Below are positions 24,090 to 34,045 of a stretch of 57,430 nucleotides of DNA, in pieces (the first letter of the stretch is position 1; each line of letters begins with the position of its first letter). Under the pieces are notes generated by a model. That model saw nothing but the letters and a program-made list of their open reading frames with translations. It ran no database searches and was not told where the DNA came from. This DNA is from Chloroflexota bacterium (GTDB lineage Bacteria > Chloroflexota > Dehalococcoidia > Lucifugimonadales > UBA1127). A program made the translations under genes and the position numbers. Location of the stretch: contig JAPONS010000042.1 of NCBI GenBank assembly GCA_026713825.1, positions 1-57,430 of the forward strand, in the 5' to 3' direction.

Positions 24090-24228
24090 TCTCTTCCTCC
24101 GGTGACTTCATCCAGCGAGACGCACGTCTATTGCGCAAAACTGTAATTGAAAACGCGGGGCAAACAGAAAGGTTAGCGCACCGTTTGTACGCCGGGAGGG
24201 GTTCAGGGTAAAGCAGTGGATTCCCGGC

Positions 24229-24858
24229 CTAGCCGGCGCCCACGCCCTCCTGCAGCACCCGGTCCATCACCTGCTTGAAGAAGTCGTACGGGTGTGCGCC
24301 GGTGAAGAGGTAACGGCCGATGGTAAAGGCCGGGATGCCGTTGATGCCGTAGCTGATCGCCTGTTGGTAGCTCTCCTGCACGGCCTCGGCGTACGTGCGC
24401 TTCTGCAGTGCCTCCTCCAGCCCACGCGGGTCCAGCCCGACCTCCTCCGCGACAGCCGTAAGCACCTCGGTCTTCTCGATGTCCTCGCCGCGCTCCCACA
24501 GCGCGCGGAAGCACGCGTGGTGGAAGGGCATCTCCAACCCCATCGCCTTGGCATACTCCGTCGCCTCCAGCGCGGGCACCGTGTACGGCGTGTGCGGGCT
24601 GCGCCGCATGATGAAGCCGGCCTCTTGGGCGTAGGTGCGAAGGGGCTCGTTCAGATCGCCGCCCGGTTGCTCGCCCGGCCGAGGCTGCCGCTCCCTGCCG
24701 CCCGGCGGGATGTCCGGCCGAAGGAAGAACGCGCGCGTCTCTATCTCGACGGGATACTCATCCTGGAGCTTGGTCAGCCTGTCCAGGCCGATGTAGCACC
24801 ACGGTCAGATGTAGTCCGTCCAGACCGTAACCGGAATCGTCTGCGCTTCGGTGGACAT
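24229..24858 (-). CDS. DsbA/FrnE-like thiol oxidoreductase, putative selenoprotein with in-frame UGA
   Basis: A full-length DsbA-family (FrnE-like) frame of 209 residues runs from ATG at 24858 (AAGGGGGG upstream) to 24229. It contains one in-frame TGA at codon 18 (24807-24805). The surrounding residues are W-T-D-Y-I-(TGA)-P-W-C-Y-I-G, where relatives have C-P-W-C-Y-I-G, so the TGA replaces exactly the first redox cysteine. The rest is intact and conserved, including F-F-L-R-P, G-L-E-M-P-F-H, G-I-N-G-I-P-A-F and D-F-F-K-Q-V-M near the end. This fits a selenocysteine U-x-x-C active site rather than decay. A downstream hairpin supports it. An independent restart at the ATG at 24609 would lack the active site. 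A Cys to stop mutation is the main alternative. Cytoplasmic, since no signal peptide is seen. Confidence 0.8.
24764..24801 (-). promoter_or_regulatory. Putative bacterial SECIS stem-loop in the DsbA/FrnE-like gene
   Basis: It begins three bases after the TGA, on the mRNA strand. From the outside in there are UGG/CCA, a U-U mismatch, GCU/AGC, a 3x3 internal loop, and a 7-bp stem UCGGCCU/AGGCUGA. The apical loop is GGAC (24784-24781). The loop starts 20 nt after the UGA and begins with GG, which fits the known bacterial SECIS pattern of a G-starting loop about 16-37 nt downstream. I folded it by eye. Confidence 0.7.
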
Positions 24859-24883
24859 GGCAGCCCCCCTTAACTTTCGCGCA

Positions 24884-24911
24884 AGTATATCACGCGCTCG
24901 CACGCGTACAA
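24884..24911 (-). promoter_or_regulatory. Candidate promoter of the DsbA/FrnE-like gene
   Basis: TTGTAC (24911-24906) and TATACT (24889-24884) on the minus strand are spaced by 16 bases, 26 bases before the ATG. It diverges from the promoter of the FmdB-like gene. Confidence 0.55.
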
Positions 24912-24920
24912 CCGCGTTTC

Positions 24921-24950
24921 TTGACACGTTCTCTACTCACTTGATAGGCT
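24921..24950 (+). promoter_or_regulatory. Candidate promoter of the fmdB-like gene
   Basis: A perfect TTGACA (24921-24926) is followed after 18 bases by TAGGCT (24945-24950), 43 bases before the GTG start. It is back-to-back with the promoter of the DsbA-like gene. Confidence 0.5.
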
Positions 24951-24992
24951 TTGCAGAGACGAACGTTTGGCGTTTACTAGTTGAGGTTTGCT

Positions 24993-25349
24993 GTGCCCCT
25001 TTACGACTACTTGTGCCGAAGCTGCAATCATAAGTTTGAGCTCAGGCAGGGATTCGACGCTGACACAATGACGGACTGCCCTCAGTGCGGGCAGTTGGCA
25101 GACCGTCAGATCAGCTTGGTGCCCGTCATCTTCAAGGGTAGCGGCTGGTACGTGAACGACTACGGCAAGAAGAAGAGCACCCTCGGCAACGGCGACGCGC
25201 CGTCCTCTGACGACGGCCCTTCCACCAGCGATGGCGACGGCCACGGCCACTCCCACGACCACGGCCATTCCCACAGCCACGGCGGGCACTCCCACGATCA
25301 CGGCGCCCCTGCAGCCGCCTCGTCCGAGTCTTCCGGCTCGGACGGCTAA
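24993..25349 (+). CDS. FmdB-type zinc-ribbon protein with a His-rich tail
   Basis: Protein of 118 residues. The N-terminal zinc ribbon has Y-D-Y-L-C-R-S-C, then D-C-P-Q-C-G, the two CxxC pairs typical of the FmdB/regulatory zinc-ribbon family. The middle has I-F-K-G-S-G-W-Y, also typical. The C-terminal ~30 residues are a histidine-rich H-G-H-S-H-D-H-G run, likely metal binding. GTG start with TGAGG seven bases upstream. It probably cotranscribes with dtd, ten bases downstream. Confidence 0.85.
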   Translation: MPLYDYLCRSCNHKFELRQGFDADTMTDCPQCGQLADRQISLVPVIFKGSGWYVNDYGKKKSTLGNGDAPSSDDGPSTSDGDGHGHSHDHGHSHSHGGHSHDHGAPAAASSESSGSDG

Positions 25350-33953: not shown

Positions 33954-34045
33954 TGGCGGAGGGACAGGGATTCGAACCCTGGAGGGGCGGTTAGGCCCCC
34001 AAGCGCTTAGCAGGCGCCCGCACTAGACCACTATGCGATCCCTCC
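33954..34045 (-). tRNA. tRNA-Ser (anticodon GCU)
   Basis: A class II tRNA of 92 bases. The acceptor arms GGAGGGA and TCCCTCC pair, CCA is encoded at the 3' end (33956-33954), the anticodon loop has GCT within C-T-G-C-T-A-A, the long variable arm is GC-rich, and the T loop TTCGAAT is intact. It would read AGC/AGU serine codons. A candidate promoter TTGTAG-17 bases-TACGAT lies upstream on the minus strand. Confidence 0.95.

Follow-up and report, generated by a model that had tools for sequence, protein, structure and literature searches.

Selenoproteins that combine a DsbA-like fold with a UxxC motif were first reported in 2005 from the Sargasso Sea, in the form of nine sequences of COG2761 (PMC1088965). 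The Global Ocean Sampling set contains the same UxxC kind under the name 'DsbA 1' (PMC2398784); it has been found in isolates as well (PMC1794560), and is entered in a 2026 review as 'DsbA-like protein form 1' (PF01323, UxxC; PMC13188914). An earlier note on the DNA studied here, a Chloroflexota contig stretch of 57,430 nt that we call the window throughout, had proposed that one of its minus-strand genes encodes such a protein, and had pointed out that U-x-x-C redox motifs are known in several thioredoxin-fold selenoproteins. In common with the published proteins, the product of this gene belongs to PF01323, carries its predicted Sec in the first position of U-x-x-C, and is encoded with a stem-loop just 3' of the UGA that has G in its apical loop. 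Unlike the published set, it is placed in a Chloroflexota genus with full Sec machinery; the published example is NIP15863.1, and the likeness was drawn from family features. Since every feature of the family that can be tested in sequence is present, the gene is a further member of a known family—new and well documented, from a Chloroflexota (Dehalococcoidia) lineage, and otherwise ordinary—and its novelty is correspondingly lowered by the established status of DsbA-like UxxC selenoproteins.

Two further families provided points of comparison. The best solved relatives are structures of FrnE (5cnw, 5cp1), likewise of the DsbA family, in which C-P-W-C aligns with the U-P-W-C of the window protein (E 1e-17). 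FrnE differs in that Cys occupies the Sec position and that its chain, at 260 aa against 209 aa here, has a longer C-terminal part, and the alignment ends at FrnE residue 209 of 260. The C-terminal half also resembles NF041057 (Rcas_1661 family thioredoxin-like (seleno)lipoprotein, DsbG-like; E 5.7e-12). However, NF041057 is a lipoprotein family, whereas inspection of the N-terminal sequence of the window protein revealed no evident signal peptide, lipobox or hydrophobic leader; membership in NF041057 was rejected at 45.7 bits, far under the cut-off of 190.

A DsbA/FrnE-type gene with a single in-frame UGA

The gene is an open frame from ATG to TAG (Table 1), comprising 209 codons before the TAG, with a translation that reads MSTEAQTIPVTVWTDYI up to the UGA and PWCYIG...VGAG from there to the terminal stop. 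With codon 18 read as Cys, the protein matches PF01323 (DSBA) over residues 10-197 (E 6.4e-33; 114.6 bits, above the gathering score of 25.6 bits), which bears out the initial description of an intact frame with family features. The sole in-frame TGA falls at codon 18, in the context VWTDYI-U-PWCYIG, where Sec18 would form the first position of the active-site motif U18-P-W-C21. When the window was searched for further redox motifs that include an in-frame TGA, many matches came up, and only the one at 24807 appeared coding-like by eye. The mechanically produced list of open reading frames gives a 126-aa fragment for this gene; a standard gene caller would cut the protein after 17 codons or begin it at a downstream start, and the gene is thus easily mis-annotated.

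The start region had been credited with both a strong ribosome site and a divergent promoter of its own, and these two elements fared differently. The Shine-Dalgarno-like stretch is indeed strong and lies 5 nt before the ATG, whereas a sigma-70 consensus scan of 24100-25020 recovered no promoter, a negative that carries little weight for a non-model phylum. There is a divergent neighbour gene: it encodes an FmdB-type zinc-ribbon protein whose Cys residues are ordinary. Selenoproteins of the FmdB family (UxxU) appear in the 2026 review (PMC13188914). Upstream of the DsbA-like gene lies dtd in addition to this FmdB-type gene, and downstream, on the same strand, an HlyD/ABC/MacB exporter set; the neighbouring genes give no specific clue to its function.

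Table 1. Features of the DsbA/FrnE-type locus, in positions of the window
Feature	Position	Strand	Basis
Predicted DsbA/FrnE-like selenoprotein gene; PF01323 thioredoxin-fold oxidoreductase, 209 aa, Sec as residue 18	24229..24858	-	Translation, domain match, dN/dS
UGA (codon 18), predicted to be read as Sec, within the U-P-W-C active-site motif	24805..24807	-	63 TGA and 16 TGC/TGT among 79 aligned loci
Shine-Dalgarno-like AGGGGGG, 5 nt 5' of the ATG at 24858	24864..24870	-	Read from sequence
Bacterial SECIS-like hairpin, 7 bp	24774..24791	-	Folding, Sec-form specificity, offset, covariation
Hairpin 5' arm, UCGGCCU	24785..24791	-	
Hairpin apical loop, GGAC, with two G	24781..24784	-	
Hairpin 3' arm, AGGCUGA	24774..24780	-	
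Divergent neighbour, FmdB-type	24981..25349	+	PF09723

Sec and Cys at codon 18 among relatives

All five genus and family relatives carry TGA at codon 18, with one match and one TGA each at 54-94% identity, and one of them (G005) is a single-contig genome. Close public matches include an entry labelled 'uncultured Dehalococcoidia bacterium' (OX638292.1; 94%) and a Chloroflexota MAG (89%). At the level of the order, a match was recovered in 86 of 197 genomes, and the best match contains TGA in 85 of these 86. A phylum sample of 400 genomes yielded a match in 89, mostly with TGA, and the TGA is kept in relatives across the phylum down to about 33% identity.

We then compared the 79 homologous loci whose DNA was fetched and aligned at codon 18. 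The aligned codon is TGA in 63 and TGC or TGT in 16, with no other codon in any of them, so that the alternation of Cys and UGA, which the earlier note had suggested looking for, occurs at exactly this position. In a tree of these loci the Cys forms are scattered and require 8 changes, of which at least 6 are forced by well-supported branches. Apart from the UGA of codon 18, internal stops in the aligned loci examined are found only near the C-terminus, as natural ends.

This conservation bears directly on two other accounts of the TGA. According to the first, a nonsense mutation struck a DsbA gene of the Cys form at codon 18, and the remainder has not yet decayed; such a pseudogene would explain the in-frame TGA itself and nothing else. 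It is refuted by the occurrence of the same TGA in relatives throughout the phylum, together with purifying selection 3' of the TGA, where dN/dS is 0.11 and 0.13 against the two nearest relatives (L025 and L026), that is, about 0.12. The hairpin described below, specific to Sec forms, is a further point against it. We therefore regard a pseudogene as highly improbable, in keeping with the original argument that random nonsense mutation would show no preference for this position. The second account is that sequencing or assembly turned a true TGC or TGT into TGA, for which the fragmented state of the assembly (114 contigs) and the existence of Cys forms in the family could be cited. As the same TGA recurs in independent genomes—five genus and family relatives, one of them a single contig—such an error is excluded for all practical purposes. 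Sequencing error and decay with further stops had both been named in advance as possible outcomes speaking against a selenoprotein, and neither was encountered.

Some genomes of the order also encode additional DsbA paralogs (L096, L097, L105 and L087-L089). In a second, divergent paralog (~35-39% identity) the codon in question is again TGA; a third paralog has Cys, with the motif changed to CPHC or CPHS.

Selenium machinery in the same genome and across genomes

The genome that carries the DsbA-like gene (G000; 2.64 Mb, 96% complete) encodes the whole set of selenium genes for which a search had been proposed. Above their curated cut-offs we recovered selA (543.9 bits), selB (314.8 bits, or 347.3 with its C-terminal part), selD (380.2 bits) and tRNA-Sec (68.5 bits), the last also reported by ARAGORN as SeC with anticodon tca. 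Within the matched stretch of the selD gene (L019:1501-2421; G000:C17:26857-27777), codon 11 is an in-frame TGA (AHCAGUAAKFS), at a site where SelD selenoproteins are known to carry Sec. It is thus probable that this selD is itself a selenoprotein gene, so that at least one further gene of the genome seems to use UGA as Sec. The 2026 review enters SelD among the selenoproteins with the motif UxxK (PMC13188914).

These observations also weigh on the proposal that the UGA specifies an amino acid different from Sec (Trp, as in code 4, or Gly) or is passed by plain readthrough. Nothing but the open frame speaks for that proposal: homologs show Cys and never Trp at codon 18, and the genome has selA, selB, selD and tRNA-Sec, with selD using UGA likewise. 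Moreover, TGA ends 33 of the 87 frames of at least 200 aa in the window, as would suit its ordinary use as a stop, even if many of the frames counted are not genes. A decoding other than Sec is accordingly very improbable.

Across genomes, selA is present in 170 of 197 members of the order and in 322 of the 400 genomes of the phylum sample, and a bulk correlation between TGA and a gene this frequent is weak as a statistic. The only informative genomes in this respect are four near-complete ones without selA or full-score selB (G046, G404, G420 and G541), and all four have Cys at codon 18. Seven TGA genomes without selA do have full-score selB, which is consistent with incomplete assemblies. 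Both selA and full-score selB are missing from the TGA genomes G030 (74% complete), G109 (83%), G411 (86%) and G291 (95%); for G291, from the phylum sample, incompleteness may not fully explain their absence.

A SECIS-like hairpin and the proposed route of Sec insertion

In the window sequence a hairpin occupies offsets 16-33, counted from the U of the UGA, with a folding energy of -9.5 kcal/mol; in Sec-form loci it lies at offsets 16-34 on the same count. When 30 nt at offset 12 were folded and each sequence was set against 300 of its synonymous recodings, the mean z was -2.09 in the 63 Sec forms versus -0.23 in the 16 Cys forms, and 70% of the Sec forms reached p <= 0.05; for the window sequence alone the signal is modest (p 0.023). 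A position scan of the Sec forms with 30-nt windows, taken every 12 nt through ~300 nt 3' of the UGA, gave z -1.71 at offset 15 and values from -0.36 to +0.33 elsewhere. Dinucleotide shuffles of 45-96 nt 3' of the UGA left the stability weak or unclear (z -0.1 to -1.9), and detection of the Sec-form signal needed the synonymous-codon shuffle on 30 nt together with the comparison of Sec and Cys forms.

Among 42 distinct Sec-form sequences, 87% of the cells of the hairpin are paired. The covariation score is 0.231 versus 0.126 in shuffled alignments, with 0 of 500 shuffles as high, and it is the best among all slid registers. Both-side changes occur in three of the seven pairs, a number within the range of the shuffles (197/500); the excess resides in the number of cells, which indicates that inheritance within clades accounts for part of it. 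Compared with the family consensus register, the 3' arm sits one base off in most members of the window's own genus, and the consensus structure is thus not matched letter for letter. At the gathering threshold, Rfam recovered only a tRNA (33957-34045) in the window and no SECIS family. The features of the hairpin agree with the published description of bacterial SECIS elements, in which a stem-loop just 3' of the UGA bears G in a small apical loop (PMC1088965). It fits a bacterial SECIS, to which SelB may bind as in known families. We also observed a Cys-form locus (L061, from G462; TGC), nested among the Sec forms of one family, whose hairpin is still stable when set against recodings (p 0.02), perhaps as the remnant of a recent change from Sec to Cys.

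The earlier reading of the gene as a selenoprotein thus drew support from the machinery and the Sec/Cys alternation, to which the hairpin is added here. By every available computational test—the conserved codon, its alternation with Cys, the selenium genes that the genome carries, the hairpin specific to Sec forms and purifying selection 3' of the UGA—the gene almost certainly encodes a Sec-containing DsbA/FrnE-type oxidoreductase. In the mechanism that we propose by analogy with known families, the ribosome would reach the UGA at codon 18, where the hairpin would recruit SelB loaded with Sec-tRNA(UCA), whose synthesis involves SelA and SelD; insertion of Sec would then yield the full 209-residue protein. 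The DsbA and FrnE families provide the basis for expecting Sec18 to act as the attacking residue of the U-P-W-C redox centre and Cys21 as the resolving residue, and thiol-disulfide exchange would then be faster than in CxxC forms. Given the lack of a hydrophobic leader, a cytoplasmic role is likely, as is a function in thiol homeostasis or disulfide isomerisation of the kind proposed for FrnE.

As a DsbA-like UxxC protein, this case brings no new mechanism. It represents a well-supported selenoprotein in an environmental Chloroflexota lineage, and its Sec and Cys homologs make up a clean set for tracking the SECIS hairpin. At a broader level, the homologs may delineate a clade of FrnE-type DsbA proteins that spans the Chloroflexota, with Sec predominant among the closest sampled sequences, repeated swaps between Sec and Cys (a minimum of 6-8 changes on the tree) and no coding-region hairpin in forms that have Cys instead of Sec; we judge this proposition evenly balanced between true and false. 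If true, this clade would offer a natural series on the gain and decay of SECIS elements under a double constraint, on protein and RNA alike.
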